From positions 1 to 28,878 of the IMG/VR virus record IMGVR_UViG_3300034198_007842: a DNA stretch of 28,878 nucleotides; one strand, given 5' to 3'. The position numbers and the translations under genes were made by a program. Below, in pieces: positions 1,837 to 28,481 of this stretch (its first letter is position 1; each line of letters begins with the position of its first letter). The DNA comes from a virus. The notes under the pieces are model-generated. The model worked only from the letters and a program-made list of their open reading frames with translations. It ran no database searches and had not been told where the DNA came from.

Positions 1837-2297
1837 TGGCAAAGCATAAGTATATTGAAACTCCTGAAGAGTTATCTAAGTATTTTGAATTATATAAAAC
1901 AGAATGTAAATCTAATCCTAGAAAAAAACACGTATTTGTAGGCAAAGATGGTACAAGTGATTATGAGTTATTAGAACGACCTTTAACTATGGAAGGATTT
2001 AGAGCTTATTGCTTTGCTAAAGTAGGCTGTGTTAAGCATTATTTTGATAATACAGATAATAGATACGATGAATATAGTACTATCTGTCGCGCGATAAAGG
2101 ATATGATTAGGCTAGACCAAATAGAGGGCGGAATGGTTGGACAATACAACCCATCAATCACACAGCGTTTAAATGGTTTAGTTGAAAAGACTGATAATAA
2201 AAATGATAATGTTAACATCAATAAAAATATTACTGTTGAAGTTATGAAGTCAGATACTAACTTATCAAATAGCGAAAAGGATATTAATTTAGATTAG
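1836..2297 (+). CDS. terS: Terminase small subunit
   Basis: 153 residues. The segment RPLTMEGFRAYC followed by a helical core and QIEGGMVGQYNPSITQRLNGL is typical of the gp3-like small terminase of Bacteroidota phages. The family recognises the packaging site on phage DNA and loads the large subunit. The C-terminal tail after residue 120 (Asn, Lys and Asp rich) is likely flexible. Its start overlaps the lipoprotein stop (TAATG) and its TAG stop overlaps the GTG start of the large terminase gene by one base, so the three genes are translationally coupled. Being immediately before terL supports the call. Confidence 0.8.
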   Translation: MAKHKYIETPEELSKYFELYKTECKSNPRKKHVFVGKDGTSDYELLERPLTMEGFRAYCFAKVGCVKHYFDNTDNRYDEYSTICRAIKDMIRLDQIEGGMVGQYNPSITQRLNGLVEKTDNKNDNVNINKNITVEVMKSDTNLSNSEKDINLD

Positions 2298-3448
2298 TGT
2301 TTAAAGCAAGTGTATTATACGAGGCTAATTATAATGCTACCGAAGATATAATTGTTAATCAAGGTGGCTCAAGTAGTGGTAAAACTTATTCTATACTTCA
2401 AGTATTATTTACTAAAGCTGTAAGTGATTATAATGTAATTACAGTTGTAGGTGAGTCTATCCCTAACTTAAAATCTGGTGCATTAAGAGATGCCTTAGAT
2501 ATTTATAATAGCAGTCCTATTCTCAAATCTCTTATATCTGATTATAACCGTACAGATAGAATATTTCAATTTTCTAATGGCTCTATAATGGAGTTTAAAA
2601 GCTATGAGAATCCACAAGGTGCAAAGAGTGGTAAACGTGATTATCTATTTGTCAACGAAGCTCAAGGTATTTCTAAAGAGGTTTTTAATGAATTGCATAT
2701 AAGGACCAAGAAACAAACATTCATCGACTACAATCCGAATGCTGAGTTTTGGGTACATGAAGATATTATAGGCACTCCGAATACTAAACTATTTATATCA
2801 GATCATAGACATAATCCATTTGTACCTCAAAAGATTAGAGATAAGATTGAGGCATTGAGATATAAAGACATGGAACTATTTAAAGTTTACGCTAGGGGAT
2901 TAACAGGTAAAATAGAGGGCTTAGTCTTTAGAAACTTTGATATAGTTAATGAGATACCTAAAGATGCTGAAGTACTAGGTTTAGGTATAGATTGGGGTTT
3001 TACAAATGATCCTACAACTTTATTAAAAGCATATCGATACAATGGCGAGTTATACATTGATGAGTTAATCTATCAAACAGGATTAACCAATAGTGACATT
3101 ATATCTAAACTTAATCAATTAGGTATTAATAGACGAGATACTATTGTTGCTGATAGTGCAGAGCCTAAAAGTATAACAGACTTACAAAGGGCAGGTTTTA
3201 ATGTTCAAGGTGCTAATAAAGGAGCTGATAGTATCATCAACTCTATTGATACTTTAAAACAGTTTAAAATCAATTTAACAAGGAATAGTACTAATACCAT
3301 TAAAGAGTTTAGAAGTTATAAATGGGCTACTGATTCAAGTGGTAAGACTATCAATAAGCCTGTTGACTTTAACAATCATAGTATTGATGCGATTAGGTAT
3401 ATTGCCTTAAATCTTATCAATAAAACTAGTAGAATTATACTAGATTAA
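2297..3448 (+). CDS. terL: Terminase large subunit (PBSX-like)
   Basis: 383 residues from a GTG start fixed by overlap with the terS stop. The N-terminal ATPase has Walker A GGSSSGKT at residues 23-30 and Walker B DYLFVNEA at 115-122, with Glu121 as the likely catalytic residue. The C-terminal RNase H-like nuclease shows GIDWGFTNDPTT (Asp232), VADSAEP (Asp286) and HSIDAIRY (Asp364), the three acidic positions expected for metal binding. This motor cuts concatemeric DNA and pumps it into the prohead through the portal. The length is somewhat short for the family but all motifs are present. A late promoter element starts three bases after its stop. Confidence 0.95.
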   Translation: MFKASVLYEANYNATEDIIVNQGGSSSGKTYSILQVLFTKAVSDYNVITVVGESIPNLKSGALRDALDIYNSSPILKSLISDYNRTDRIFQFSNGSIMEFKSYENPQGAKSGKRDYLFVNEAQGISKEVFNELHIRTKKQTFIDYNPNAEFWVHEDIIGTPNTKLFISDHRHNPFVPQKIRDKIEALRYKDMELFKVYARGLTGKIEGLVFRNFDIVNEIPKDAEVLGLGIDWGFTNDPTTLLKAYRYNGELYIDELIYQTGLTNSDIISKLNQLGINRRDTIVADSAEPKSITDLQRAGFNVQGANKGADSIINSIDTLKQFKINLTRNSTNTIKEFRSYKWATDSSGKTINKPVDFNNHSIDAIRYIALNLINKTSRIILD

Positions 3449-3450
3449 TA

Positions 3451-3478
3451 TGTCACTTTTAACTTAAAAGTTATTATG
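3451..3478 (+). promoter_or_regulatory. Putative phage late promoter, copy A
   Basis: First of three copies of TGTCACT-N9-AAAGTTATWATG. TGTCACT lies at 3451-3457 and AAAGTTATTATG at 3467-3478. The segment ACTTTTAAC-TTAAAAGT here is also a near-perfect palindrome. The ATG of the next gene (3484) begins 5 bases after the element. TATTAT as -10 would place transcription start on or next to that ATG. The element resembles a -35/-10 promoter and not the host TAnnTTTG type. Confidence 0.65.
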
Positions 3479-3483
3479 TGTAT

Positions 3484-4146
3484 ATGAAATTACCTTATTC
3501 TTTTGAAGATATGACTTTAAGCCAGTTCATGCAATTACATGAATTAGAGCAAGATAAAGGTATTGATATACTAGATAGACAATTAAAGAAACTATCTATC
3601 TTATCAGGTAAGTCAGTAGAATACCTTGAAACTTTAGACATTAAGTTAATTAAAGACTATTTAGCTAAGGTATCTTATACTTCTAATGCTCCAACTGAAA
3701 TGAGAGTAGTCCCTAGATTTAGAGTTAAAGGTATGTTATTAAAACCTACCATGTCACTGCAAGAAATGAAAGTTAATCAATTAGTAGACTTTTATAGCTT
3801 ATTAAAAGCAAGTGACGGTAAATATATTCAATCAGCAAATAAGTTATTAGCTGTAATGTTTAAACCGCTGAAGTTATTTAAAGAGTCGGTTTACAGTCCT
3901 GAGAGCCACGCCAAAATAAGCGAACTATTGTTAAGTGCAAAGGTGGGGGATTGCTTAGGACTGCTTTTTTTTTATTTAAACTTTTGGAACAAATGCGCTC
4001 CGATTATGAGCCGTTATTTGGAGAACAACAACAAAGTAATAGCGGAAATAATGAACGAGATAATGAACGACAAAGAATTCATGGATTCCTTGAACAATGG
4101 GGGTGGGAATATAACATCGACCAATGTGCAGAAAGTGAACGAGTAG
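3484..4146 (+). CDS. Tail assembly chaperone, unshifted form (gpG-like)
   Basis: 220 residues from ATG 3484; the upstream GTG at 3478 overlaps the promoter element and is rejected. MTLSQFMQLHEL near the N-terminus, a conserved middle (residues ~75-110) and a hydrophobic GLLFFYL segment near residue 160 match the tail assembly chaperone type of Bacteroidota phages. These proteins coat the tape measure protein during tail assembly. A run of nine T at 3965-3973 lies in the FF codons and allows a -1 shift. From there to 4146 this frame uses many AAC, TTG and GAG codons that its neighbours avoid, as expected when a second frame is also read. Confidence 0.7.
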   Translation: MKLPYSFEDMTLSQFMQLHELEQDKGIDILDRQLKKLSILSGKSVEYLETLDIKLIKDYLAKVSYTSNAPTEMRVVPRFRVKGMLLKPTMSLQEMKVNQLVDFYSLLKASDGKYIQSANKLLAVMFKPLKLFKESVYSPESHAKISELLLSAKVGDCLGLLFFYLNFWNKCAPIMSRYLENNNKVIAEIMNEIMNDKEFMDSLNNGGGNITSTNVQKVNE

Positions 4147-4250
4147 GGTGGGAATATATTTATATTAATTGGAATGTAATAGAGTTCTTAAATAGATTGA
4201 GTTACTTAAAAGATAAAGGTAAATTTTTAATAGCGATTAATGGGTCTTAG
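3484..4250 (+). CDS. Tail assembly chaperone, -1 frameshift fusion (gpGT-like)
   Basis: Predicted join of 3484-3972 with 3972-4250 by a -1 shift on T TTT TTT, giving about 255 residues. The -1 frame has no good start codon of its own (only a TTG at 3951) but is open from 3903 to the TAG at 4248. Its codons are typical of this genome (GAA, CAA, AAT, GAT), unlike the unshifted frame over the same bases. The extension carries FLEQWGWEYNIDQCAE and a final VIEFLNRLSYLKDKGKF, a pattern I know from shifted tail chaperone tails in Bacteroidota phages. The lambda G/GT pair is the reference system. The next gene starts inside its last codons, at 4240. Confidence 0.6.
3966..3972 (+). other. Putative -1 ribosomal slippery site
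   Basis: Heptamer T TTT TTT in the zero frame, inside a nine-T run (3965-3973), fits the X XXY YYZ rule. Slippage here joins the chaperone frame to the open -1 frame. I see no strong stem directly downstream: only a 4-bp GCTC/GAGC hairpin about 25 bases away. Confidence 0.55.
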
Positions 4251-4818
4251 TGAAAATATAAAAATATTATTAGATGAGTTCGCTGAATTTACTAAGAATG
4301 AAGTGAGGAAGTCAGCTCGTGAAAAGGGTATTACTTTTGGAGGTCAGGATAGTAGAATGTTAAGTGATAGAAACTTTGTCACTAAATATACCACTACTTC
4401 AACTTCTCTAAAATTAACTATTGAAATTATACCTGAATATGCTAGAGTAGTAGATGAGGGTAGAAGTGCTGGTAAGACTCCGCCAATAGAACCTATTAAG
4501 AATTGGATCAAGCGTAAAGGTATATTGAAAAGTGAACGACCTAGTATAACTAAAGGCACTAAGAAAGTTAAAACTAATAAACCTAAACCATCTTTTGAAA
4601 AGAGATTGACTTCTATGGCTTATGCTATTGCTAAAAACATAGGTAAGAATGGAACGATTAAAAGATTCAATTATAAGGGCAGTAACTTTTGGACTGATGT
4701 AGTAGGTAGGAATGGAGATAACGCAAGCGCAGGAATGAATGAGGCTTATAATCAATTAAAAACAAATCTATTTGAAGAGCTTAAAAAAGAAGTACAAATA
4801 GAATTAATTAGTAAATAA
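4240..4818 (+). CDS. HK97 gp10-like tail completion or head-tail joining protein
   Basis: 192 residues. The pattern YARVVDEGRSAGKTPPIEPIK-NWIKRKGI (residues ~66-95) and the later AYAIAKNIGKNGTIK are hallmarks of the HK97 gp10-like family, whose members sit at the head-tail interface or tail end. The region between residues 96 and 120 is Lys/Thr/Pro rich and probably a flexible loop. The start ATG overlaps the end of the chaperone -1 frame by 11 bases, and the stop overlaps the next start by one base (TAATG). This is consistent with a coupled tail module. Confidence 0.7.
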   Translation: MGLSENIKILLDEFAEFTKNEVRKSAREKGITFGGQDSRMLSDRNFVTKYTTTSTSLKLTIEIIPEYARVVDEGRSAGKTPPIEPIKNWIKRKGILKSERPSITKGTKKVKTNKPKPSFEKRLTSMAYAIAKNIGKNGTIKRFNYKGSNFWTDVVGRNGDNASAGMNEAYNQLKTNLFEELKKEVQIELISK

Positions 4819-5975
4819 TGGCATTAACAATATATCAAGAACCACAAGATTATACTCCTGCTTATAATGAGCAGACTATACTTGCTTTGTCTAATCAAAT
4901 AGCTATTGCAGATTTTAAGTATGTAGTAACTGTTCAAGTTAACGGTGGAACTATTTATACTTATAATGTATTACAACGACCTGATGGATATTTAGTGTTT
5001 GATGCTATGGAAATAGTAAAAAACTATATCACTAGAGATTACTTCGACACTACTACTTATGTAGGTTTAGCAACTGGTAAAAGTGCTTCAGTTGTAGTTA
5101 CAGTTAAAGAGTATTATAGTGGTGCTATTCATGGCACTCATGTAACTAGCTACATAGCTTATGATGCTTGTTTTGATGATTATGATTTTAGACAGTATAG
5201 TTATGCAAGTTACGTTTCAGACTCTTCAACAGCTCGTTTATTAAGTCCTCAAACAACTGAATTTAACTATCCTGAATTAAAGATTGATGTTAAGAATGAT
5301 GTTTGGATTCACTTCTTTAATTACTACTATGATAGTATAGATATTAATGTTTACGATAGTACTTCTACTTTATTAGGTGGGTTTAGTATAGGATTAACGC
5401 CTGATATTAATATGTGGTATGCTAATATTGGTTATACTACTTTGCAGCGTTTTGGTTATACTCCACAAGATGGATATACTATTGAAATTGACTTTATAAC
5501 TGGTACTACTTCATACTTAAGTACTTCATTAACTTTCTATGATTTATGTACTAGACATAAAAAATACGCCATCCAATATTTAAAACGTAATGGTAATATA
5601 AATGTATTTAACTTTGAGTTTTTAAGCCAAGAAACAATTAATAAAAAAGTTAATAATGTTAGGTTAAATCCTAAAAGATTAATGGTTGGACCATCTTATG
5701 GTTCTAATAATTGGGATAGAGAGGTTAATACAGTTAGTACATTAACGACTAAGCAAATTACTTTAAATACTAATTGGATAACTGAAAGTCAATCAGACCA
5801 ATTACAAGAGTTATTTGATAGCCCTATTGTTTGGTTATGCTACAATGCTGAATATATCCCTGTATCAATTACAGATACTTCATACAAGATTAATAAAACG
5901 GTTAACGATAAGCTATTTAATTATACAATAGTTTGCGAATACAATCTGCAAGAAACTAGACAAAGAGCAATATAA
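4818..5975 (+). CDS. Structural tail protein, Bacteroidota phage type
   Basis: 385 residues, beta-rich with many Tyr, Thr and Asp. The segment KKYAIQYLKRNGNINVFNFEF (starting near residue 247) matches a recurring pattern in Bacteroidota phage tail proteins (tyrosine, leucine, Asn-Arg-x-Gly, then Asp/Asn and Phe). There is no signal peptide or membrane segment. It is coupled on both sides by one-base stop/start overlaps. Position between a tail-joining protein and a very large tail protein suggests a distal tail or baseplate role. The exact function is not known from the sequence. Confidence 0.6.
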   Translation: MALTIYQEPQDYTPAYNEQTILALSNQIAIADFKYVVTVQVNGGTIYTYNVLQRPDGYLVFDAMEIVKNYITRDYFDTTTYVGLATGKSASVVVTVKEYYSGAIHGTHVTSYIAYDACFDDYDFRQYSYASYVSDSSTARLLSPQTTEFNYPELKIDVKNDVWIHFFNYYYDSIDINVYDSTSTLLGGFSIGLTPDINMWYANIGYTTLQRFGYTPQDGYTIEIDFITGTTSYLSTSLTFYDLCTRHKKYAIQYLKRNGNINVFNFEFLSQETINKKVNNVRLNPKRLMVGPSYGSNNWDREVNTVSTLTTKQITLNTNWITESQSDQLQELFDSPIVWLCYNAEYIPVSITDTSYKINKTVNDKLFNYTIVCEYNLQETRQRAI

Positions 5976-8767
5976 TGGTAAGAACTAGACTAGAAATAAG
6001 CAGTACCTCTCAACCATTCGCAAAAGATATACCTGTATCTATTGACTTTGTTTTAGCAGATGTTAGAGAGCCTGATAAACGTAATGCTTCATTTAGTAAG
6101 ACTATTGAACTATATGCTACTAATGAAATTAACAAACTATTTGAGAATATATTTGAAGTAAATATAGCTACTCAGTATTTCAATAAGAATAAGAAAACAG
6201 CTGTTAAATACTTTGTCGATGAGATATTAAACTTTGAGGGTAACTTACAACTAATTAAGATTAAACTTAATCCTGATAACTTAATCGTTTATGAATGTTC
6301 AATAGTTGGAGAGAGTGGTAATTTGTTTATTGATATAGGAGATAAGTATATTATTGGTAATGCTGATAGTACTGAAGATTTAGACTTTAGTGCTTATGAC
6401 CATACATTTAATGGTACAACTCAAAGGTATAAAAATACTCATAATGTAGGAACTGGAACGGATTGCGTTTATCCATTTATAGATAAAGGTAGTAATGGAG
6501 GTAGTGATACTGTATTTAGAGTTGAGGACTTTATGCCTTGCTTTAGTGCTTATGAGTACATTAAAAAGATTATTGAAAAGACAGGGCGTACATTTACCTC
6601 AACAACTTTAAATACAACTGATTTTAAAAATATCATTGTTTATCCTAACTTACAAAGTATATCGTTAAGTACTACACAATTAGCAAATAGACAATTTAAT
6701 GTTGGATTAAGTGCTGATATTACGGTAACAAATAACATTGCAGCAGTTGCTATTAATCATACAAATACCTCAACAGGTGGTTATTTTGATATAGGTGGCC
6801 AATCAGTAGGAACAACCGTTACTTTAAATAATGGAGGTTATTACAACTTTGCAGCTCTTAACTATTATAGCTTAACTTTTACACATACCGATGTCAGTGT
6901 AACCTATGCTGTATTCACAAATACTCAAGTTTATGTTGGTATTGATAAGTCAAGTAATGGTGGTGTATCTTATTTTCCATTAACAAATGATAACAGATTA
7001 TGGAATAATACCTTAGTTAATCAGTTTAATAAAGGCACGGCTTATTATTTCAATAACTCAGTTGCAAGTGGTTCTGCTTACTTTTCAGGTGGTGATAAGT
7101 TTCAGCAAACATTAATAGTTACACAAGGTACAGTTCAATACTACAACGCATCTAATGTATTAGTCACAACAGGAACAGGAACAATTACTTATAAGTTAAT
7201 TAGTGGAACTGCAAAAACTTCATTCTATGCTTTAGCAAGTGATAAGACTTTAACAGCAGGTAACACCATCGAAGTTAACAACGCATTGCCTATTAAGATT
7301 AAGCAAAAGGACTTTTTTAAATCAATTATTCAAGCCTTTAATCTTTATGTAGATATTGATAAGAATGATAAAAATAATGTTATTATTGAAACTTACGATG
7401 AGTTTTATAATAGTGCCATTATTAATTACGAGAATAGAACGGATTTAGATAAAGAGCAATCAATTAATCCTAATTTATTAGAGGGTAAACGATATATCTA
7501 TACTTATAAAGAAGATGGGGATTATTGGAATACTTTATATAAAACTAATTGGAATGAAGTATTTGGTACAGAAACTCAGATAATAGATAATGACTTTATT
7601 AAGAGTGATAAAAAGAATGAGTTAATATTTAGTGCAACTCCAAACGTAGCTAACTATGGTTTAGGAATAGCACACCCTCGTATCTATAAACAAGAACAAT
7701 CAGGCGGTGTAGTTGCTATTAAGCCTATCACTCCAAACATTCGTTTATTGTATTGTGGAGGTATTAAACAAACTATTAACGCTTATACCTACAAAGATAG
7801 TTCAGCTAGTGATATAGTTACTAATGATTATTTATATGCTGGGCATACTGATGATTGGGCTAATCCAACAATAGATTTAAACTTCGGTTTACCAAAGGAA
7901 GTATTCTATACTTATCCTAATGCTTACTTTACTACAAATAATCTATTTAATGCCTATCATAAAAACTACCTAAACAATATAGTTGATAAGGATAGTAAGT
8001 TTGTGACTAAGTATTTATGGCTTAATTCAAAGGACATCAATGAGTTTAATTTTAGACATAGATGGTTTATTGATGGTGCTTATTATGTAGTTAATAAGAT
8101 AGTAAACTACAACCCATTAAATGAAACCTCAACGCAAGTAGAGTTAATCAAGTTACTTGAAACTAATGTATTTACTCCATCAACAATAAGTATTAAAGAT
8201 ACTGCTATTCAAGCTGGTATTAAAAATGAGGCTATGAGATTAAATAGTGCTTTGAATTTAGGCACAGGCATATCAAATAGAGCTGCTAATTCATTGGCCA
8301 TAGGTAACAATATCGTTATTCCTGAAAGTGCATCTAATGTAATGATAATGGGTAATAATATTACCGTAGCTGAGAATGCTACAAATTTCACTTATAATAA
8401 TGGTGCAATAACTACAACGGTAATAGGTGATAGTAAGAATGTTAAATTAGTAACTGCTAACTATAATATAAAGGCTTATGACGATACTATTTTAGCAAAT
8501 GCAACAAGTGGCAATATAACAGTTACTCTAATGTATAGTTTATCATCTTATCTATTAGCTAATGTTTCAGTAAATGTAAATGGTATTAATATTAGTTCTA
8601 ATATAACTAAAGTAATTACGATAATGAAAACAGATAGTAGTGTTAATACAGTCACTATTGATGGTTATGGTGTCAATATTAATGGAAGTGCTACCAAAGT
8701 ATTAAGCACTCAATACGACTCTGCGACTTTACAATATGACGGTGCTAATTGGGTAATATTAAAATAA
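5975..8767 (+). CDS. Large tail tip protein with C-terminal beta-repeat and fibre-type module
   Basis: 930 residues. The N-terminus (SIDFVLADVREPDKRNASFSKTIEL, then NKLFENIFEVN) matches a family of large Bacteroidota phage tail or baseplate proteins that open with this SKT-I-L pattern. The middle (residues ~200-420) is beta-rich and Thr/Asn/Gly rich. Residues ~755-800 carry NSLAIGNNIVI and NVMIMGNNITV, repeats like those of YadA-type left-handed beta-rolls. The last ~100 residues (YNIKAYDDTIL...YDGANWVILK) resemble a module common at the C-termini of phage fibre proteins. I infer an adsorption-related tip protein. It is the largest gene of the window. Confidence 0.6.
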   Translation: MVRTRLEISSTSQPFAKDIPVSIDFVLADVREPDKRNASFSKTIELYATNEINKLFENIFEVNIATQYFNKNKKTAVKYFVDEILNFEGNLQLIKIKLNPDNLIVYECSIVGESGNLFIDIGDKYIIGNADSTEDLDFSAYDHTFNGTTQRYKNTHNVGTGTDCVYPFIDKGSNGGSDTVFRVEDFMPCFSAYEYIKKIIEKTGRTFTSTTLNTTDFKNIIVYPNLQSISLSTTQLANRQFNVGLSADITVTNNIAAVAINHTNTSTGGYFDIGGQSVGTTVTLNNGGYYNFAALNYYSLTFTHTDVSVTYAVFTNTQVYVGIDKSSNGGVSYFPLTNDNRLWNNTLVNQFNKGTAYYFNNSVASGSAYFSGGDKFQQTLIVTQGTVQYYNASNVLVTTGTGTITYKLISGTAKTSFYALASDKTLTAGNTIEVNNALPIKIKQKDFFKSIIQAFNLYVDIDKNDKNNVIIETYDEFYNSAIINYENRTDLDKEQSINPNLLEGKRYIYTYKEDGDYWNTLYKTNWNEVFGTETQIIDNDFIKSDKKNELIFSATPNVANYGLGIAHPRIYKQEQSGGVVAIKPITPNIRLLYCGGIKQTINAYTYKDSSASDIVTNDYLYAGHTDDWANPTIDLNFGLPKEVFYTYPNAYFTTNNLFNAYHKNYLNNIVDKDSKFVTKYLWLNSKDINEFNFRHRWFIDGAYYVVNKIVNYNPLNETSTQVELIKLLETNVFTPSTISIKDTAIQAGIKNEAMRLNSALNLGTGISNRAANSLAIGNNIVIPESASNVMIMGNNITVAENATNFTYNNGAITTTVIGDSKNVKLVTANYNIKAYDDTILANATSGNITVTLMYSLSSYLLANVSVNVNGINISSNITKVITIMKTDSSVNTVTIDGYGVNINGSATKVLSTQYDSATLQYDGANWVILK

Positions 8768-8770
8768 ACA

Positions 8771-8893
8771 ATGGAAGATTTATATACTAAAATAGAAGAT
8801 TCATTCAACGCATTATTAATGCTAAGTGAACTATACAAGTCAGGTAATGCTGATATTATTAATGTTTTAAATGAGGTAGAAAATGGCGGATAA
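8771..8893 (+). CDS. Small hypothetical protein, 40 aa
   Basis: ATG 8771 four bases after the preceding stop, TAA at 8891-8893; it fills the gap between the two large tail genes and overlaps the tape measure start by 11 bases. The product (MEDLYTKIEDSFNALLMLSEL...) is helical and acidic. Tight spacing, coupled overlap and normal codon use support a real gene. Function unknown; an accessory of tail assembly is possible from context only. Confidence 0.55.
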   Translation: MEDLYTKIEDSFNALLMLSELYKSGNADIINVLNEVENGG

Positions 8894-10730
8894 TAAGTTA
8901 GTATTTGAAACTGAAGTTAAAGGAGTTGAGCAGTCTATAAGTTCGATTAAGGATTTAAAGAATGCTATTAAGTCGGCTAAAGATGAACAAGTAAAAATGG
9001 CATCTTCTTTTGGCGAAGGCTCAAAGGAATATATTACAGCATCTAAAAATTTAGCTGAATTAAAAGATAAAATGGATGACCTTAATGATTCAACGCAATC
9101 ATTAAAAGGTAGTGGTGTTGAGAGCTTATCATCTTCTTTTGGAATGTTAGGGGATGGATTAAAGAATTTAGATTTTGATAAAGTAAAGACTGGGTTTAAA
9201 GGAATAGGCTCTGCTATGAATGCAGTACCATTACTATTGTTAGTTACAGGAATAACAATGTTAATGGAGAAGTTTGATTTATTTGGTAAGATAACAGAAC
9301 TTATAACTAAAGTAATTTATGCTTTTACTGATGCTATTGGATTAACTAATAAGGCAGATGAAGAGTTATCTAAAAATCTAATTGAAAACTCTCAAAAAGT
9401 ACAAAAAAGAAAAGAAGATCAATACGATGCTGAAATAAAAAAAGCACAAGCATCTGGGCAAAATACTAAAGAACTAGAGATTGAAAAACTAAAGGTAACT
9501 GAAGATAGTATAGCTCAACAAGTTAAATCATTAGAAGATTTACAAACTAAAAAGGGAGTATTAAATGCTGAAGAGCAAAAACAATATGAAGAGTTACAGT
9601 CTAATTTATTAAAAGCTAGTGGAGAAAGACAAGCTAAAGAGATTGAAAATGAAAAGTTAAAACAACAACAATTAATTAATTTATCAAACTTAGAAGATAA
9701 GTTAAGAGTAGATGGTTTATCAGCTCGTGAAAAGGAAATTGATGCTATTAAAAAACAGCAACAAGCATTAACAGACGAGTTAAATAAAAACCATGAAGTT
9801 AGATTAGGTAGGGAAATGCAAGATACTATTCGTTATAACGAAGATGTAAAGAAAATAAATGAACTCACACAAAAGCAAATAAATGAAGTTAACTCTAAAT
9901 ATTATAAAGCTGATTTAGATGCTAGGAATACTAAACAAGCAGAAATATTAAGACTTCAAGCAGAAGAATCAGATGCGTGGTGGGCTGAAAGATTAGCTGA
10001 AGAAGCACAAATAACTAAAGAAGAAGAAGATGCTAAGAAAGCTGAACAAGATGAGTACGATAGATTAGCTAGGTTGGGTGCTGCTCAAGATGAGCAAATG
10101 AAACGATTTACGGACCAATCAAATGCAAGGGAAAAACGTAAAGAAGAAGAAGCTGCTAAGGAAAAAGAATTAAGAAGAAAAACTATTGAAGATGATTTAG
10201 CCTATACTAAACAAGGTTTACAGGTTACTCAACAAATTACAGATTTATTCTTTGCTTATAAACTTAATAAACATAAAGGTGATGCTAAGGCTGAACTTGA
10301 AATAAGAAAGAAACAATTTAATGTAAATAAGGCTTTTGGAATTACAACGGCAGTTATTGACGGTATTGGTGCAGTTCAAAAGGCATTAAACAATCCATAC
10401 CCTTTAAATATTGTTTTGGCTGCAATTAGTGGTATTGCTGCTGCTGCTAACATTGCAAAAATAGCATCTACTAAATTTGACGGTGGCGGTGCTGCTAGTA
10501 GTGGCGGAGGTGGTGAAGCTCCTGCAACTGTTCCTATTCCAACTGCACCAACTATAAACACTCCACAAGCAAATACTAACAGCTCAACTACATTCGATGA
10601 AACAGGTAAAAAGATAGGCGGAGAAAGTAACTTAACCCCTACTATTAAAGTTAATGCAACCGTAGGAGTAAATGAAATAGCAGATAAATCAAACAGAGTT
10701 AACGTACTAGAATCACAATCTAAATTTTAA
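8883..10730 (+). CDS. Tail tape measure protein
   Basis: 615 residues, mostly helical and charged with long coiled-coil stretches (about residues 165-450). There is a hydrophobic patch near residue 115 (AVPLLLLVTGITMLM) and a second near residue 500 (AFGITTAVIDGIGAVQKAL followed by AAISGIAAAANIAKI), the usual pattern for tape measure proteins of Bacteroidota phages. A Gly/Pro/Ser-rich tail follows. The protein sets tail length and takes part in DNA ejection. By the usual proportionality, its length implies a tail of roughly 90 nm (inference). It is oddly placed after, not before, the distal tail genes. Confidence 0.85.
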   Translation: MADNKLVFETEVKGVEQSISSIKDLKNAIKSAKDEQVKMASSFGEGSKEYITASKNLAELKDKMDDLNDSTQSLKGSGVESLSSSFGMLGDGLKNLDFDKVKTGFKGIGSAMNAVPLLLLVTGITMLMEKFDLFGKITELITKVIYAFTDAIGLTNKADEELSKNLIENSQKVQKRKEDQYDAEIKKAQASGQNTKELEIEKLKVTEDSIAQQVKSLEDLQTKKGVLNAEEQKQYEELQSNLLKASGERQAKEIENEKLKQQQLINLSNLEDKLRVDGLSAREKEIDAIKKQQQALTDELNKNHEVRLGREMQDTIRYNEDVKKINELTQKQINEVNSKYYKADLDARNTKQAEILRLQAEESDAWWAERLAEEAQITKEEEDAKKAEQDEYDRLARLGAAQDEQMKRFTDQSNAREKRKEEEAAKEKELRRKTIEDDLAYTKQGLQVTQQITDLFFAYKLNKHKGDAKAELEIRKKQFNVNKAFGITTAVIDGIGAVQKALNNPYPLNIVLAAISGIAAAANIAKIASTKFDGGGAASSGGGGEAPATVPIPTAPTINTPQANTNSSTTFDETGKKIGGESNLTPTIKVNATVGVNEIADKSNRVNVLESQSKF

Positions 10731-10741
10731 AATATACAATT

Positions 10742-11317
10742 ATGGAATATCCAGTTTACTACCTAGAACTTGAACAAGGACAATTAAAATACGGATTACA
10801 AGATATCGCATTAGTAGATGATCCTGCAATTCAATCACTATTTGTTAAGTTCAAATATGAAGAGCAAAAGTTCAATTTTGCCATTCAAAACGATGAGCAA
10901 AGAATAATTACAGGTGCTGTTATGATACCTGATAAATTAATCTATCGTGAAGTAGATAATAAGCCATTCTATGTTACAGCGACTAAAGAAACAATCTTTG
11001 ATGCTGCTCAAAAATGGGGCAAAGAAAATAGAAATAACAATATTAAACTATCTCACGATGCAACCGATACGACTCCCGATGTTTTTATGTTTGAGTCGTT
11101 TGTAACCGATGAAAATAGAGTATCAAGCGTTAAAGGTTTTGAAGATTTACCTTTAGGCACATGGTTTATCACTTGCAAAGTTATGTCGGACCAAGTATGG
11201 AATGATATTAAATCGGGTGTATTTAATGGATTTAGTTTAGAGGCTTTATTTAAAATGACTCCTGCTGCTATTTTAACCGATGATGAGATTGAAGCATTGC
11301 AACAAATAGTTAAATAA
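10742..11317 (+). CDS. Prohead protease, XkdF-like
   Basis: 191 residues. The pattern ALVDDPAIQ (residues ~23-31), QRIITGAVMIPDKLIYR (~54-70) and later GTWFITCKV with NGFSLEALF (~140-170) is characteristic of XkdF-like putative serine proteases of phages. These are thought to mature the capsid by removing scaffold. The catalytic residues are not certain by eye. It lies right before the scaffold-like and capsid genes, in keeping with that role. It is the last gene of the transcription unit that starts at 3451; a late element follows five bases after its stop. Confidence 0.75.
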   Translation: MEYPVYYLELEQGQLKYGLQDIALVDDPAIQSLFVKFKYEEQKFNFAIQNDEQRIITGAVMIPDKLIYREVDNKPFYVTATKETIFDAAQKWGKENRNNNIKLSHDATDTTPDVFMFESFVTDENRVSSVKGFEDLPLGTWFITCKVMSDQVWNDIKSGVFNGFSLEALFKMTPAAILTDDEIEALQQIVK

Positions 11318-11322
11318 AAAGT

Positions 11323-11350
11323 TGTCACTCAGTTAATTAAAGTTATAATG
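11323..11350 (+). promoter_or_regulatory. Putative phage late promoter, copy C
   Basis: TGTCACT at 11323-11329 and AAAGTTATAATG at 11339-11350, at the same spacing as the copies at 3451 and 13811. Here the -10-like hexamer is TATAAT and the upstream part reads TTGTCA, close to a canonical -35. ATG 11356 follows 5 bases after the element. The nine-base spacer differs completely from the other copies, so the two boxes are what is conserved. Confidence 0.65.
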
Positions 11351-11355
11351 ATATT

Positions 11356-11967
11356 ATGAAAGATACAAAAAACAATGAAATTAATAACGCACTCAAAGAA
11401 GCTGGGTTATTAGACAAGGTAAAAAGTATTTTTGCAAAATTCAATGCTATGCCATTACAAGCTGCTGAAAATCCAGCTATTGTAACTACTCCAACTGAAG
11501 TTGAACCTACTAAGTCAGACATTAAACTAGCTGATGGAACGGTAATTACAGTTGAGGGCGAAGTTAAAGAGGGTGCAAAAGTATCTATGGTTACTCCTGA
11601 TGGAATTGCTGAAGTAGTTGATGGTGATTATACTGCTGAAGATAAAACTGTTTATTCAGTTGCAGGTGGTGTTATTACTAAAATCAGTCCAAGTGATACC
11701 GAAGTAGAACCTAAAGGCGAAGATATGCCTGCAATGATGAAAGCATTAAATGCTCGTTTAGATGCTATCGAATCTAAGTATAAAGTTGAAAATGCAGAGT
11801 TATCTGCTAAACTTTCAGCAACTACTAAAGATTTGAAAGTAGCTTTTGAGGCATTAAATGTAATTAGTTCTATGCCTAGCGCAGAACCTATTGAACAAAC
11901 AATAGATATTATGTCAATCACTGATCCATTACAAAGACATAGAGCTATTAAAGCAGCAATGAAATAA
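11356..11967 (+). CDS. Scaffold-like capsid assembly protein
   Basis: 203 residues, acidic. Residues ~54-110 form a small beta-rich repeat unit (LADGTVITVEG, PDGIAEVVDGDY, YSVAGGVITKI). Residues ~125-165 form a helical or coiled-coil segment (MKALNARLDAIESKYKVENAEL). A protein of this make-up between prohead protease and capsid gene is the usual scaffold of Bacteroidota phages; it directs capsid assembly and is then cleaved. It starts directly behind the second late element, so with the capsid genes it forms its own late unit. A minor head protein is the alternative. Confidence 0.6.
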   Translation: MKDTKNNEINNALKEAGLLDKVKSIFAKFNAMPLQAAENPAIVTTPTEVEPTKSDIKLADGTVITVEGEVKEGAKVSMVTPDGIAEVVDGDYTAEDKTVYSVAGGVITKISPSDTEVEPKGEDMPAMMKALNARLDAIESKYKVENAELSAKLSATTKDLKVAFEALNVISSMPSAEPIEQTIDIMSITDPLQRHRAIKAAMK

Positions 11968-11969
11968 CA

Positions 11970-12152
11970 ATGGCTAAAGAAGTAAAAGAAAACAAAGTAG
12001 AAGTTCTTAACCCATTTGATAACGGTGTTAATTACAAAATGTTCTTAGAGTCTTTAGGCTCAACTAAGTTAGAAGATTATTGTAAAGCAAATTTATCAGA
12101 CGAGCAAAGTGCATTCTTAATTGAAGATTTAAAACATTATAAACAAAAATAA
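11970..12152 (+). CDS. Small hypothetical head-region protein, 60 aa
   Basis: ATG two bases after the scaffold stop, ending 13 bases before the capsid start. The product (NPFDNGVNYKMFLESLG... ending IEDLKHYKQK) is small, charged and helical. I recall similar short proteins in this position in Bacteroidota phages but know no function. Its place between scaffold and capsid suggests a role in head assembly; this is inference. Confidence 0.6.
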   Translation: MAKEVKENKVEVLNPFDNGVNYKMFLESLGSTKLEDYCKANLSDEQSAFLIEDLKHYKQK

Positions 12153-12165
12153 AAACTAAAAAACA

Positions 12166-13185
12166 ATGGCAATATCGTATTCAACAGCGACTGAACCAAA
12201 AGCAGTCATAGAGAAAGTACTAGAAGAGGTACTATTCGCTAACAAAACAATTTCTGAGGGTTATGTAACTTTCAATGATAACATTAAAGCAGGTACTATT
12301 TTCACTGAAGAGAATATGTCTGTAACAGCACAATTATACACAGGTGCAGCGTTATCTTCTAGTGGTACTATCACTTTAACTGATAGAACTATCACTCCAA
12401 CTAAATTAGAGTATAAACAAACTTTCTTACAAGAGTCTTTACGTTCATCTCGCTATAAGCGTTCAATGAAGCCGGGAGCTTGGAATATTGAAAGTTCTGA
12501 ATTTGCATCTAATGTATTAGCTAAGTATGGTCCTAATGTATCTGAAGATGCTGAGTCTATTTTTTGGGGTGGTATCACTTCTGCAACAAAAACAGCTATC
12601 GCAGGTTTAACTCCCGGTGCTTCTCAAGGCTCAATGACTGCTGCAACTCAAACTGCTGTGGCTTCTTTAACTGCTGGTTTAGTAGACGGTGTATTTGCTA
12701 AAGTATTATATGATAACTCTGCTTTAGGTGGATATATCAAGGTAACAGGAACAACAGTTACTAGCTCAAATATCAGCGCTGAGTGTGCCAAAATTTTTGC
12801 TGCAATACCAGCTGAAAATTTAAACGATACAGTTAGCCCAACAGTTATCTACTGTCCTCGTGCATGGAAACAATTAGTATATTCTGCTAACAATGCAGTA
12901 GGTGCTGCTCAACAAATTAACTTCGTAATTGATGGTGCTGATTTCGCTAGCTCTCGTGTTTTCTTTCAAGGTGTAGAAATGTTATTCGTACCTGCTCCAA
13001 ATAACTTAATGGCTTATGCTCAACGTAAAGCAGCAGTATCTTGGAATACTGACTTAGTTGATGATGTTAACCGTTTTGAAACTGGATTATTAGTTAACGA
13101 TGGTGATACTCAATTTGTACGTGCTATTTATACTTTAGCTGCTAACGTAGGTCAAGCAACTAAAGGTGTATTATACGGCGGATAG
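12166..13185 (+). CDS. Major capsid protein (HK97 fold)
   Basis: 339 residues. There is no homology motif that settles the fold by eye, but several features agree: an N-terminal helix (TATEPKAVIEKVLEEVLF), a Phe/Gln-rich region (QTFLQESLRSSRYKRS), an Ala/Thr/Ser-rich central part, and a C-terminal pattern MLFVPAPNNLMAYAQRKA...WNTDL typical of Bacteroidota phage capsids. It lies after protease and scaffold and before the tail tube. The leader is strongly A-rich (AAAAACTAAAAAACA before ATG), the usual high-expression start in this phylum. A long-stem hairpin follows the stop. Confidence 0.8.
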   Translation: MAISYSTATEPKAVIEKVLEEVLFANKTISEGYVTFNDNIKAGTIFTEENMSVTAQLYTGAALSSSGTITLTDRTITPTKLEYKQTFLQESLRSSRYKRSMKPGAWNIESSEFASNVLAKYGPNVSEDAESIFWGGITSATKTAIAGLTPGASQGSMTAATQTAVASLTAGLVDGVFAKVLYDNSALGGYIKVTGTTVTSSNISAECAKIFAAIPAENLNDTVSPTVIYCPRAWKQLVYSANNAVGAAQQINFVIDGADFASSRVFFQGVEMLFVPAPNNLMAYAQRKAAVSWNTDLVDDVNRFETGLLVNDGDTQFVRAIYTLAANVGQATKGVLYGG

Positions 13186-13197
13186 TCAATAAATTAT

Positions 13198-13223
13198 AGT
13201 GAGGGCTTTAACTAGTCCTCACT
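13198..13223 (+). terminator. Hairpin after the major capsid gene
   Basis: AGTGAGGGCT at 13198-13207 pairs with AGTCCTCACT at 13214-13223 over 10 bases (one G-U pair) with a 6-base loop. The following sequence TAACTTTTAAAA is only partly T-rich, so it may be a partial terminator or a 3' structure that protects the capsid message. It lies 12 bases after the capsid stop. Confidence 0.6.
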
Positions 13224-13245
13224 TAACTTTTAAAATAAAAAACAA

Positions 13246-13758
13246 ATGGCTTGTTCATTAACTCAGGGGTTTACTCCTAAATCATGTAAAACAGTATCAG
13301 GAACTAAATCATTCTTGATAGCTGAATTTGCAGCAGTTACAGCAGTTACAAAAACTGCAGGTGTAGTAACTGCAATTACTAAAGCGAGTGGTAAGCACTT
13401 TTGGCGTTATGCTCAAAAGGCTGAAGTTGCTATGTGGAAACAAACATCTACTATTGATCCTAAGAATGGAGCTTATGCTTACGACTTAGAGGCTAGTTTA
13501 GACCAATCTACTTTAGACCAAGCTACGTTAACTGAAAATGAATTATTACTTAAAAATACAGTAATGATGATTGCAGAAGATAGCGATGGTACATTTTGGC
13601 TATTAGGCGAGAACTACGGAATGGATGCTGTAACAATGGGTACAGAGGGCGGTGTTGCAATGGGCGACTTTAGAGGTACTAAAATATCTTTTAAAGGTCG
13701 TAACTATGCTGCTGTTGCATCTGTTGATGCTTCTATCATTACTGCTTTATTATCTTAG
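13246..13758 (+). CDS. Probable major tail tube protein
   Basis: 170 residues, Ala/Thr/Val-rich with little charge. The patterns FWRYAQKAEVAMW (residues ~48-60), GTFWLLGENYGMDAVTM (~112-128) and GVAMGDFRGTKISFKGRNYAAVASV (from ~133) match a structural protein type found in Bacteroidota phages that I associate with the tail tube. It sits behind the capsid hairpin and before a strong terminator, with an A-rich high-expression leader like that of the capsid gene. An abundant head decoration protein is the alternative. Confidence 0.6.
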   Translation: MACSLTQGFTPKSCKTVSGTKSFLIAEFAAVTAVTKTAGVVTAITKASGKHFWRYAQKAEVAMWKQTSTIDPKNGAYAYDLEASLDQSTLDQATLTENELLLKNTVMMIAEDSDGTFWLLGENYGMDAVTMGTEGGVAMGDFRGTKISFKGRNYAAVASVDASIITALLS

Positions 13759-13777
13759 TAATTAATTACATTTAAAG

Positions 13778-13809
13778 AGCCTAATCATTAATTTGGTTAG
13801 GCTTTTTTT
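13778..13809 (+). terminator. Rho-independent terminator ending the capsid unit
   Basis: AGCCTAATCA at 13778-13787 pairs with TGGTTAGGCT at 13794-13803 over 10 bases (one G-U pair), loop TTAATT, followed by a seven-T run at 13803-13809. It lies 20 bases after the tail tube stop, and the next late element starts two bases downstream. Confidence 0.85.
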
Positions 13810-13810
13810 A

Positions 13811-13838
13811 TGTCACTTTTTAAATAAAAGTTATTATG
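13811..13838 (+). promoter_or_regulatory. Putative phage late promoter, copy B
   Basis: TGTCACT at 13811-13817 and AAAGTTATTATG at 13827-13838, same spacing as the other two copies. It begins directly after a terminator, and ATG 13845 starts 6 bases after it. This terminator-then-element order is strong support for promoter function. Confidence 0.7.
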
Positions 13839-13844
13839 TAGTAT

Positions 13845-14237
13845 ATGATTTTAATAAATAAAAATGCTACTAATACAGTCGTTTTAACTCTAGCAGAGCG
13901 AACTACTTTAACTAATGTAGTTTATTTATTTGAGTTCATAAAAGATGGTTCTACTGGTAATCCAAAATACTTTATAGCTCAGGATATATCAGTTAACAAA
14001 TTACGTTTCAATGAATTTAATATAATTGAAAATACTACTGAAAATTTATTAATAGGTATAGTTAATTTAGATGTGGCAGATTATAAATACAATATTTACG
14101 AGCAAATAAGTACCACTAATTTAAATCCTAGTGGTTTAAATAAAGTAGAAGAGGGTAAGGTACAAGTTAAAACTAATGCCGTTTCATTAAGTGAGTTTAA
14201 CGGTCAACAAAATACAATAGTTTCATTCAATGGCTAA
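13845..14237 (+). CDS. Small structural protein, Bacteroidota phage type
   Basis: 130 residues. The opening MILINKNATNTVVLTL, then YLFEFIKD, and later YKYNIYEQISTTN form a pattern that I know from conserved hypothetical proteins next to portal or tail genes in Bacteroidota phages. It is beta-rich without a signal peptide. First gene of the third late unit; its end overlaps the portal start by 8 bases. Its exact place in the virion is unknown. Confidence 0.6.
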   Translation: MILINKNATNTVVLTLAERTTLTNVVYLFEFIKDGSTGNPKYFIAQDISVNKLRFNEFNIIENTTENLLIGIVNLDVADYKYNIYEQISTTNLNPSGLNKVEEGKVQVKTNAVSLSEFNGQQNTIVSFNG

Positions 14238-16233
14238 AGCAAAATTTGAGATATTAGACAGTGCAAATAAACTAGCTATGTTAGCGTTTGATGCTGTTAA
14301 GACTCCTGATGTATCAATAGATGATATGTTAGGTTATGTGAAGTATGGTAAAAGAAATGATTTTCCACAGGAGTTAATCCGTTTCTATAATGACCATGCA
14401 GAGCATAGTGCAATAGTTCAAGCTAAAGCAAAGTACCTTTCAGGTATGGGATTGAAAGCTAAAAATCAAGAGCAAGAAATAGCTGCTAATAGTTTTTTAG
14501 ATAGAGCTAATCGTTTTGAAAGTTGGAATGATTTAAACAAAAAGATAGCTTTAGATTGTGAGTTATTTAATGCTTGTTATTTACAAGTTATTCACGACTT
14601 ACAAGGTAACCCTATCGAGTACTTACATTTACAATATGCGAATTGTCGTTTATCTGAATGTGGCACTAAGTTATATTATAGTGAAGATTGGAACGCTAAG
14701 AGTTGGAAGTTTAAATATAAATGCTATCCATTATTTACTAAAGGATTAACAGGCAGTTCATTTTTACGCTTTAAATATTACCAACCGGCTGCAAGTAAAT
14801 TAAAAGCATTATATCCATTACCAACATACAAAGGTTGTTTAACTGAAATTAAATCTGATATTGATATTAGCACGTTTGATGCTAATTTAGTATTGAATGG
14901 ATTTAGTGCAGGTACAATGGTTACTTTCTTTAATGGAGAACCAACGCCTGAAGAAAAACGAGCTATTAAAGAAAAGTTTGCAAGTATTCATGCTAATCCT
15001 GAAAATGCAGGTAGTATCGTTATTAACTATGCTAATAAAGGTGATGAAGCTGCTAAAATTGAAGCTATCAATGCTGATGATTTAAGTACTAAGTTTGAGG
15101 CTATACAAAAGCGTTATCAAGCTAAAATATTAATCGGGCACAATGTAACTAATCCCGAAATATTTGGAGTTAAAACTGAGGGTAGCTCATTAGGTAATCG
15201 TGTTAGTATTCGTGAAAGTTATGAGTTAATGCTTAATACTTATACTAAACCTAGACAAGAAGATTTATTATCATTCATTCAAAATGTTTGTTTTCAAAAG
15301 ACTGGACAATGGATTGAATTTGAAATTGAGCAATTAGATCCTATTGGATTTGATTTAACAAATGATGCAGATTTAACACAAGATGAACGTAGAAAGTTAA
15401 AAGGATATGAGCCTTTAACAGCTCCTAAACTTGATGCTAATGGTGTAGAAATTAAAGAAAGTGAAGTAAATAATACTTTAACTAATTTAACAGGTCGTCA
15501 GTTTCAAGGCTTAATGCGTATCGTTACTAAATTTGATAACGGTAAACTAAGCAAAGAAAGTGCTATTGCTTTAATGGTTAGTGGCTTTGGATTGACTAAA
15601 GAAGATGCTTTAACTTTCTTAAATGAGAATGATCATGTAGAAGAGGTTGCTACTAAAATGGCTAATCAAAAAACTATTGATGATTGTTTAATTGCTTACT
15701 TTGAAAGTTTAGATACTGATTCTGATTTACATTTAGAATTGATTAATGAAGAGGAAGTACATTTACATAGTTCAAAAGATGCTGTTAAGTTTGAAATGGC
15801 AATGGAAGTTAAATTTGCTAATGAAATTAAACGTAGCTCATGGTTAGATAAATTGATTAGTGGTATTACAGGTATCATAGGAACTCCAACTCCTAACGAA
15901 GTAAAAGATATAGCTAAAGAAAATAATTCAGATATTAAGACTACTGAAATATTAACTAAATATCATTATGCTTTAAAATCAGATGCACCTCCATTAAAAG
16001 GTAAATCATCAAGACCATTTTGTACTAAGATGATGGCAATGTCTGATAGTGGTAGAGAGTTTACATTTGAGCAAATTGACAAAGCTAGAGTAGCAGGTTT
16101 ATCAAATGGTTTTCCTGAATTAGATAATATTTGGGATTTCAGAGGTGGGTATTATAATAATCCAACTACTAATAGTATAGATCCTTTTTGTAGACATATT
16201 TGGAAAGCACGAACTTATAAAATAGTTAAATAA
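14230..16233 (+). CDS. Portal protein with an extra C-terminal domain
   Basis: 667 residues. The N-terminal part shows the portal pattern GKRNDFPQELIRFYNDHAEHSAIVQAKAKYLSG (from residue ~40) and later GTMVTFFNG, AKILIGHNVTNPEIFGV and RVSIRESYELML (residues ~310-340), as in HK97-type portals. The portal forms the ring through which DNA enters and leaves the head. Portals of this type end near residue 450; here another ~200 residues follow, with SSRPFCTKM (near 592), FRGGYY (~640) and a terminal FCRHIWKAR (~654). That last part resembles the Cys/His-rich ends of MuF-like minor head proteins. I infer a portal-minor head fusion. Confidence 0.75.
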   Translation: MAKAKFEILDSANKLAMLAFDAVKTPDVSIDDMLGYVKYGKRNDFPQELIRFYNDHAEHSAIVQAKAKYLSGMGLKAKNQEQEIAANSFLDRANRFESWNDLNKKIALDCELFNACYLQVIHDLQGNPIEYLHLQYANCRLSECGTKLYYSEDWNAKSWKFKYKCYPLFTKGLTGSSFLRFKYYQPAASKLKALYPLPTYKGCLTEIKSDIDISTFDANLVLNGFSAGTMVTFFNGEPTPEEKRAIKEKFASIHANPENAGSIVINYANKGDEAAKIEAINADDLSTKFEAIQKRYQAKILIGHNVTNPEIFGVKTEGSSLGNRVSIRESYELMLNTYTKPRQEDLLSFIQNVCFQKTGQWIEFEIEQLDPIGFDLTNDADLTQDERRKLKGYEPLTAPKLDANGVEIKESEVNNTLTNLTGRQFQGLMRIVTKFDNGKLSKESAIALMVSGFGLTKEDALTFLNENDHVEEVATKMANQKTIDDCLIAYFESLDTDSDLHLELINEEEVHLHSSKDAVKFEMAMEVKFANEIKRSSWLDKLISGITGIIGTPTPNEVKDIAKENNSDIKTTEILTKYHYALKSDAPPLKGKSSRPFCTKMMAMSDSGREFTFEQIDKARVAGLSNGFPELDNIWDFRGGYYNNPTTNSIDPFCRHIWKARTYKIVK

Positions 16234-24384: not shown

Positions 24385-24529
24385 CGCCACCTAAAGCTAA
24401 CAAAGTATATAAGTAAGTGGCTTTTAACTAGTTTACCCCTATCGGCATTTACTTTCTCATAGTCCGTAGTACTCCGTCTATAAGCAATAAGAAGTAAGCC
24501 ACCTACTCATATACTCAACCGTTAGGTGC
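24385..24529 (-). ncRNA. Folded RNA or attC-like element after the cassette-like gene
   Basis: Bases 24404-24423 pair with 24496-24515 over all 20 positions when read as a minus-strand RNA; two positions are G-U, so DNA-level complementarity is 18 of 20. An outer stem joins CACCTAA (24388-24394) to TTAGGTG (24522-24528). The loop of 72 bases (24424-24495) contains further short pairings. The element begins 5 bases after the stop codon at 24534. On the minus strand it opens with ACCTAAC, which fits RYYYAAC of integron attC sites, and near its end has GTTAGCT, one mismatch from GTTRRRY. It may be a structured RNA, an attC-like recombination site, or both. Confidence 0.55.
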
Positions 24530-24533
24530 AATA

Positions 24534-24956: not shown

Positions 24957-24996
24957 ATTATATTTTATCTGTTAATTAAAATTCGTGTTCCAAATC

Positions 24997-28460: not shown

Positions 28461-28481
28461 CAAATATAATTAATATATTTG
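28461..28481. promoter_or_regulatory. Back-to-back divergent promoters forming a palindrome
   Basis: CAAATATA (28461-28468, a TATATTTG box on the minus strand) and TATATTTG (28474-28481, plus strand) are perfect reverse complements five bases apart. The minus box serves the phosphoesterase gene (ATG at 28445, 15 bases on), the plus box the RusA gene (ATG 28487, 5 bases on). The two boxes are so close that polymerase cannot occupy both at once. Confidence 0.65.

Follow-up and report, generated by a model that had tools for sequence, protein, structure and literature searches.

Three repeated elements before structural genes of a probable Bacteroidota phage as putative late promoters read by a candidate phage sigma factor

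Phage sigma factors that switch on late promoters are already known. In phiEco32 and Salmonella phage 7-11, a phage sigma factor distantly related to the sigma70 family is described together with late promoters that drive the structural genes, functional genes rely partly on bacterial promoters, and a phage anti-sigma factor or host polymerase inhibitor is named alongside (PMC4331800). The T4 late factor gp55, which acts together with gp33 and gp45, has been aligned to domain 2 of sigma factors (PMC2988020). In this study, we describe three copies of the element TGTCACT-N9-AAAGTTATWATG in IMG/VR record IMGVR_UViG_3300034198_007842, a stretch of 28,878 nucleotides (hereafter “the window”) from a phage whose host probably belongs to the Bacteroidota. 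An initial reading made from the letters alone, without database searches (the sequence-only reading), had taken these copies for a phage-specific late promoter class not typical of Bacteroidota. Repeated phage-specific motifs at homologous late positions and a sigma-like gene upstream of the terminase large subunit gene (terL) support such a class, distinct from the host TAHHTTTG type, as the best explanation. A sigma/promoter pair describes the element better than a promoter class alone would, and we consider it likely that all three copies are late promoters read by the putative sigma factor encoded at 415-936. As far as a literature search thin in subscription papers reached, two aspects are new: probable Bacteroidota phages carry this sigma family upstream of terL, and each phage has a private set of promoters, apparently co-evolving, at homologous places.

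Scanning both strands of the window yielded three exact matches to the motif, all on the + strand, with RNA starts predicted from the usual distance between a -10 box and the first transcribed base:

3451-3478, + strand: putative late promoter 1, with TGTCACT at 3451-3457 and AAAGTTATTATG at 3467-3478 (TATTAT 3472-3477); predicted RNA start 3484, the A of the ATG
11323-11350, + strand: putative late promoter 2, with TGTCACT at 11323-11329 and AAAGTTATAATG at 11339-11350 (TATAAT 11344-11349); predicted RNA start 11356, the A of the ATG
13811-13838, + strand: putative late promoter 3, with TGTCACT at 13811-13817 and AAAGTTATTATG at 13827-13838 (TATTAT 13832-13837); predicted RNA start 13844/13845, ATG at 13845

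When up to three mismatches were tolerated, the sole extra match in the window was at 706, and 100 shuffled sequences gave a mean of 0.07 matches at this tolerance, none of them reaching four. The second box, AAAGTTATWATG, searched by itself on both strands, was confined to the same three late places, with 0.10 occurrences expected. Written as promoters, the elements read [AT]TGTCA, 16 bases, TATWAT, with a constant TGT-to-TAT distance of 21. The sequence-only reading had described three copies and no others, a nine-base gap with differing spacers, and an intergenic location 5-6 bases before an ATG at the head of structural gene blocks, and each of these points was borne out: the gap between boxes is nine in all copies, every copy lies past the stop codon of the preceding gene, and the start codons at 3484, 11356 and 13845 follow the motif after 5, 5 and 6 bases (6, 6 and 7 when counted from TATWAT). 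The spacers do differ in their bases, although copies 1 and 3 are alike there too, the likeness of copy 2 being limited to the two boxes. Counted at the usual distance past the -10 box, transcripts from each element would begin at the A of the ATG or one base earlier. The record (28.9 kb) has no end repeats, and those of relatives extend to 32-39 kb, so it may miss further copies. The three-mismatch copy, at 706-733, falls within the sigma-like gene at 415-936 and is probably a chance match.

Recent duplication of a single cassette with no function of its own could account for the similar spacers of copies 1 and 3, but not as readily for copy 2, which matches in the boxes only, nor for the other repeated motifs found at homologous places in relatives (see below), and we regard it as extremely improbable.

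Promoters of the primary sigma factor in Bacteroidota are characterized by TTTG within a TAHHTTTG -7 element (PMC6847099). The three late sites read TATTATGTG, TATAATGAT and TATTATGTA, lack TTTG, and are not among the 40 TAHHTTTG matches in the window (35.9 in shuffles, i.e. no enrichment), in line with the earlier claim that they differ from the TAnnTTTG boxes of the early genes. As for the likeness to -35/-10 boxes (TTGTCA, TATAAT) that had also been proposed, resemblance to the E. coli type is no evidence alone: TTGACA/TATAAT-like sites numbered 67 between 9000 and 22500, compared with 70.9 in shuffles. In this stretch, which excluded copy 1, copies 2 and 3 scored 11/12 and 9/12 against TTGACA-N17-TATAAT, and the box resembling the E. 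coli type differs in relatives. Since sites of this kind occur at shuffle frequency, likeness alone would mean little; what sets the elements apart is their exact recurrence at three late positions. The elements could instead be read by a host sigma factor (the primary ABfr or a host ECF factor), with the gene at 415-936 serving another role, and TATTAT and TATAAT do share T-12, A-11 and T-7 with the host -7 element (consensus in PMC6847099). This is, however, unlikely given the missing TTTG, and it accords poorly with two results presented below, i.e. ten different cores in ten phages with homologous late genes, and promoter similarity that tracks the phage sigma factor more than terL.

The candidate reader of the elements, for which the sequence-only reading had proposed no protein, is encoded upstream of terL, from which it is separated by three open reading frames (ORFs) and the gene for the terminase small subunit:

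415-936, + strand: putative ECF-like sigma factor gene, proposed reader of the three promoters, 173 amino acids (predicted fold, syntenic homologs)
399-406, + strand: host-type -7 element TATATTTG, 8 bases before the ATG of the sigma gene (motif match)

An AlphaFold model built from a 17-sequence alignment consists of two helical domains connected by a poorly predicted linker, with a pLDDT of 92-95 for residues 1-70 and of 77.7 overall. The first 20 Foldseek rows listed were all titled as sigma factors or transcription complexes. In VIA-align comparisons, region 2 aligned to E. coli sigmaE (4lup_A; Z 7.8, 2.5 Å, 78 residues) and region 4 to sigmaE region 4 bound to -35 DNA (2h27_D; Z 7.8, 2.4 Å, 64 residues), so that both domains fit matching halves of one protein family, in the correct order. 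Cellular ECF (group IV) sigma factors contain domains 2 and 4 only, with a short linker and about 170 amino acids in total. The 173-residue product has this same layout in its predicted fold, with domains 2 and 4 both predicted at weak E-values and moderate Z, and based on this model it is probably an ECF-type sigma factor that would read the three promoters.

Homologs of this protein were found upstream of terL in G001, G003, G005 and other relatives (G and L numbers denote phage records), several of them preceded by TATATTTG or TATATTTA. In a first alignment of 8 members, evaluated at E <=1, three matched PHROG 1740 (best 3.7e-6) and three matched Pfam Sigma70_r2 (best 0.0057), and the syntenic homolog of G028 exceeded the Pfam Sigma70_r2 cut-off (26.8 vs 24 bits). 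A family model matched 25 of 49 records or stretches, some of them overlapping and many ending short of the region upstream of terL; 12 of these 25 rows came from records included in the model, and the other 13 had E-values from about 1e-60 to 0.0045. An extended model gave a weak candidate in G034 (E 0.016, near 24490-24991) and no match in G021, G031 and Cellulophaga phage phi46:1. The sigma proteins of the window, G018 and G006 had no tblastn match in 50,697 phage records, and searches of PDB sequences returned 5 weak matches for the alignment profile and 15 for the window protein alone, none of them a sigma factor. Elsewhere in the window, two divergent TATATTTG elements lie at 28461-28481 between gene starts at 28445 (-) and 28487 (+), and likely form a host-type divergent early promoter.

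The comparison with relatives was anchored on terL and on the first gene after each element, whose homologs were identified by iterated profile searches independent of the motif:

2297-3448, + strand: terminase large subunit gene, terL, with its stop 2 bases before promoter 1
3484-4146, + strand: P1 gene, first after promoter 1, conserved in relatives (profile search)
11356-11967, + strand: P2 gene, first after promoter 2 (profile search)
13845-14237, + strand: P3 gene, first after promoter 3 (profile search)

A scan of related phages with the motif had been proposed as a check by the sequence-only reading. The exact motif was found in no relative of the window phage in the viral_contigs scan, but relatives carry motifs of their own before their late genes. 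In the close relative L081, the P2 place reads TGTACAT-N9-AAAGTCATTATA and the P3 place TGTAACA-N9-AAAGTCATTATA, i.e. the layout equals that of the window, and the sequence is different and again common to both sites. Comparisons of upstream stretches, most of them within 22 records among the matches listed and those for G001, G003 and G018 made separately, gave one core per phage: ATGTTATATTA in G001, TTTGGTATATT in G003, AAGGTATATTA in G018, ATTGCTATTTA in G006, [TA]AGTATTTAATA in G008, TTGTAATTTAAT in G010, TTYAGTCTTAW in G028, TGCCACTAYA in G025 and AATTGATATATWA in G007. Across the ten phages (window included), the cores occur in 2-4 copies each, for 32 hits compared with about 0.96 expected under a Markov model, and seeking every core in the other nine records gave 9 hits in total. 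All 32 hits share the strand of terL and are followed by an ORF start, and 30 precede homologs of four late genes: 10 are at P1, 8 at P2 (including one G028 ORF that also matches the gene before P2), 9 at P3 and 3 at the gene preceding P2, the other 2 lying before unidentified ORFs of G010 and G028. The private motifs are observed; as their cause, we infer that the sigma factor and promoters of these relatives changed together, each phage having its own sigma/promoter code.

Spacing is also kept within these sets. The TGT-to-TAT distance is 21 in all three sites of G001, 22 in all three of G003, and 21 in two of the three sites of G018 as counted by script, the third also giving 21 if the outer TGT is used. 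At P2 of G001, G018 and G003, the boxes are located 26-33 bases before the ATG with this spacing unchanged. These sites bear on whether the motif might act in translation, as an A-rich leader of the Kozak type, or form an RNA structure ahead of the ATG. The near-constant distance to the start at P1 and P3 would favour this, as would the use of upstream adenines rather than Shine-Dalgarno sites in Flavobacterium johnsoniae (PMC6847099). The sites at P2 argue against it, however, and the two window sites that were folded gave z-scores of -1.0 and +1.6, neither of them unusual, making this reading very unlikely.

Eight viral_contigs that do contain the exact motif were set aside: they hold a single identical 28-mer, and look unrelated because tblastn with 26 window proteins returned nothing in the stretches compared. 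No DNA near-identical to window positions 3000-15000 was found in the phage collection. In G034 (L158, L159), two ORFs are preceded, at 4549 and 27849, by TTGTTATTA with GAAACAA upstream, which may represent a further private promoter set; TTGTTATTA has three more copies on the opposite strand, not near starts, and this phage has a weak sigma candidate.

We next consider how similar promoter sites are within and between phages. For 53 sites, 41 within-phage pairs had a mean score of 18.7, compared with 11.6 (standard deviation 3.2) for 885 between-phage pairs from different positions, and 14 of the 41 scored above all 885. Permuting phage labels gave an expected sum of 488 +/- 22 against the observed 765, which was reached in none of 2000 permutations. 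The permutation left out 13 near-duplicates or records without two usable sites (G019, L095, L131, L060, L063, L064, G009, phi46:1, L187, L184, L178, L179 and L176), the P2 site of G007 was dropped at a contig edge, and the P3 sites of G018 and G003, which have GTG starts, were placed by hand once the motif was known, to the advantage of 4 of the 41 pairs. For G021 and G034, the P1-P2 pair was at chance level, and that of G031 scored 18.3, a value reached by 26 of the 885 between-phage pairs.

Promoter similarity was then related to sigma identity in 38 of 65 records or stretches that had the sigma, terL and P1 genes, thinned to 16 at 93% sigma identity (the P1 start of G005 being hand-picked). 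Correlation coefficients were r 0.67 for sigma identity and r 0.31 for terL identity; the partial correlation with sigma given terL was 0.63 (p 0.0002), and that with terL given sigma was -0.16. Controlling for the P1 gene instead left a partial correlation of 0.42 (p 0.0006), a less clean control since the P1 gene itself is strongly correlated with sigma (r 0.93). With stricter thinning, the partial correlation given terL had p 0.0003 (n 13), 0.0017 (n 11) and 0.059 (n 8). The window offers a natural cross in this respect: in terL it shares 75-77% identity with G008 and G010, but its sigma protein is nearer to that of G001 (37% vs 16-26%), and the -35-like box TGTCA is closer to TGTAA in the G001/G018 group than to AACAAA in G008. 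More generally, the window terL (2297-3448) is about 70-77% identical to those of phages with far more distant sigma, P1 and tail proteins, a mismatch between terL and its neighbours that points to recombination around terL.

Several observations weigh against late promoters read by a phage sigma factor. On the side of the promoters, 15 of the 41 within-phage pairs are at chance level, mostly from phages with a weak or no sigma candidate or from fragments, but G025 also contributes two of them and G028 its single pair. The sigma correlation weakens at n 8 (p 0.04-0.12), and, for the window taken by itself, the whole-region promoter score barely discriminates (4.8 to G001, 3.6 to G008, 12.7 to G005), so that the cross described above rests on the -35-like box. 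The cores of relatives were chosen from upstream comparisons, by which their place ahead of genes, as opposed to their absence elsewhere, is partly built in. On the side of the protein, the window sequence matches PHROG 1740 (“RNA polymerase sigma factor”) at E 0.006 only, whereas several family members match it better, and no Pfam Sigma70 match was found for it alone. The model has a pTM of 0.45 and a pLDDT below 50 for residues 82-103, Foldseek E-values are weak (best 0.043), and a Z of about 8 can, for small helical proteins, reflect mere common arrangement. What the analysis shows is the motifs, where they lie, the predicted fold and the likeness of sites within phages; timing, binding, start sites and leaderless translation belong to the proposed model.

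An AT-rich inverted repeat, identified by eye, also spans the spacer in copies 1 (3455-3471) and 3 (13815-13831). In copy 1 it reads ACTTTTAA-C-TTAAAAGT and is partly paired in RNA folding; the version in copy 3 is shorter and imperfect. It could be due to chance or be the site of a second regulator, and would suit an operator. The motif might accordingly be the binding site of a phage activator or repressor working with the host RNA polymerase, as a conserved box pair at fixed spacing could equally be a protein site, and a small helix-turn-helix-like protein is encoded at 25039-25413 (weak hits). Copy 2, however, has no inverted repeat across its spacer (again by eye), the boxes are at -35/-10 positions for an RNA starting at the gene start, and the TGT-to-TAT distance is constant, at 21 in every site of the window and G001 and at 22 in every G003 site, all of which leaves this reading quite unlikely relative to late promoters read by the protein encoded at 415-936.

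Under this sigma/promoter reading, host RNA polymerase with its primary sigma factor would transcribe the sigma gene from the TATATTTG-type promoter at 399-406. The phage sigma factor would then bind the host core polymerase, its predicted domain 2 contacting the -10-like box and its predicted domain 4 the -35-like box. The resulting holoenzyme would start at the three elements, near the A of the start codon, and the tail, head and portal blocks would be expressed late from leaderless mRNAs. A broader proposal, which we hold tentatively and rate slightly below even, is that the late sigma factor changes in step with the whole of its promoter set from one phage of this lineage to the next, giving each phage a private code that is insulated from host genes and from rival phages in the same cell, with late mRNAs marked as leaderless.

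Each element stands at the head of a block of late genes. Copy 1 is located between terL and a conserved gene heading the tape measure block, and copies 2 and 3 head the blocks containing a probable capsid protein and the portal protein, respectively. As the sequence-only reading had noted, one copy (copy 3) directly follows a strong terminator:

1836-2297, + strand: terminase small subunit gene (PHROG 606, E 1.7e-13)
8883-10730, + strand: tape measure protein gene, in the block behind promoter 1 (PHROG 9483, E 7.6e-8)
12166-13185, + strand: probable major capsid protein gene, in the block behind promoter 2 (product 37.5% identical to a virion structural protein of Cellulophaga phage phi46:1)
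13774-13807, + strand: terminator hairpin and U-run directly before promoter 3 (-17.6 kcal/mol, z -5.8)
14230-16233, + strand: portal protein gene, in the block behind promoter 3 (PHROG 11226, E 8.2e-23)

Just past the capsid-like gene, a hairpin at 13198-13223 (-15.8 kcal/mol, z -5.6) has hairpin-like counterparts of different letters at the same place in relatives such as L081 and L103, and could serve as a conserved attenuator or a site of processing. Scanning the window for Rfam families and tRNAs gave no matches. Two neighbouring reverse-strand genes, starting at 21687 and 21877 (-), have the 16 bases ACTAAACAAACAAGAC in common just before their starts, perhaps as a translation leader or other regulatory repeat.

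The host assignment is derived from similarities of this phage to others. Within the 50,697 phage records, the capsid-like protein matched only Cellulophaga phage phi46:1 (2 records of this phage). Matches to terL extend to 1330 phage records from many hosts, and the first among the matches listed are an unannotated faecal phage record, Phocaeicola phages and Flavobacterium phages. In bacterial genomes, the terminase was detected at a single locus, in a metagenome-assembled genome of Mucilaginibacter, and the sigma family model had no match in the 21 kb examined there. The host therefore remains inferred, and is probably a member of the Bacteroidota.

If the proposed pairing is correct, these phages would offer small sigma factors as a natural series, every member paired with its own promoters at homologous places, in which the co-evolution of a regulator and its whole regulon is directly testable. 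They would also supply orthogonal sigma/promoter pairs for Bacteroidota, and a transcription programme for phages known, by the searches made, almost only from metagenomes.

Among the systems outlined at the start, phiEco32 and 7-11 similarly combine a distant phage sigma factor with repeated phage-specific promoters before late structural genes, found there, as in this analysis, by pairwise comparison of intergenic regions. These two phages infect enterobacterial hosts and have promoters that are alike (tAATGTAtA in phiEco32), whereas here the core differs from phage to phage, a -35-like box is present in several, and many predicted starts look leaderless. Leaderless transcripts are described as frequent in phages (PMC5312081), yet leaderless late mRNAs would differ from hosts such as F. 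johnsoniae, in which leaders exceed 10 nucleotides in 87% of the transcripts that have a probable promoter (PMC6847099). Relative to the primary-sigma promoters of Bacteroidota, the window sigma gene is preceded by a similar TATATTTG, and the three late elements differ in having no TTTG. Finally, the putative sigma factor encoded at 415-936 would resemble T4 gp55 in being a very small and highly diverged member of the sigma family, gp55 directing the host core polymerase to late promoters; gp55 aligns to domain 2 and acts with helper proteins, whereas domains 2 and 4 are both predicted here.

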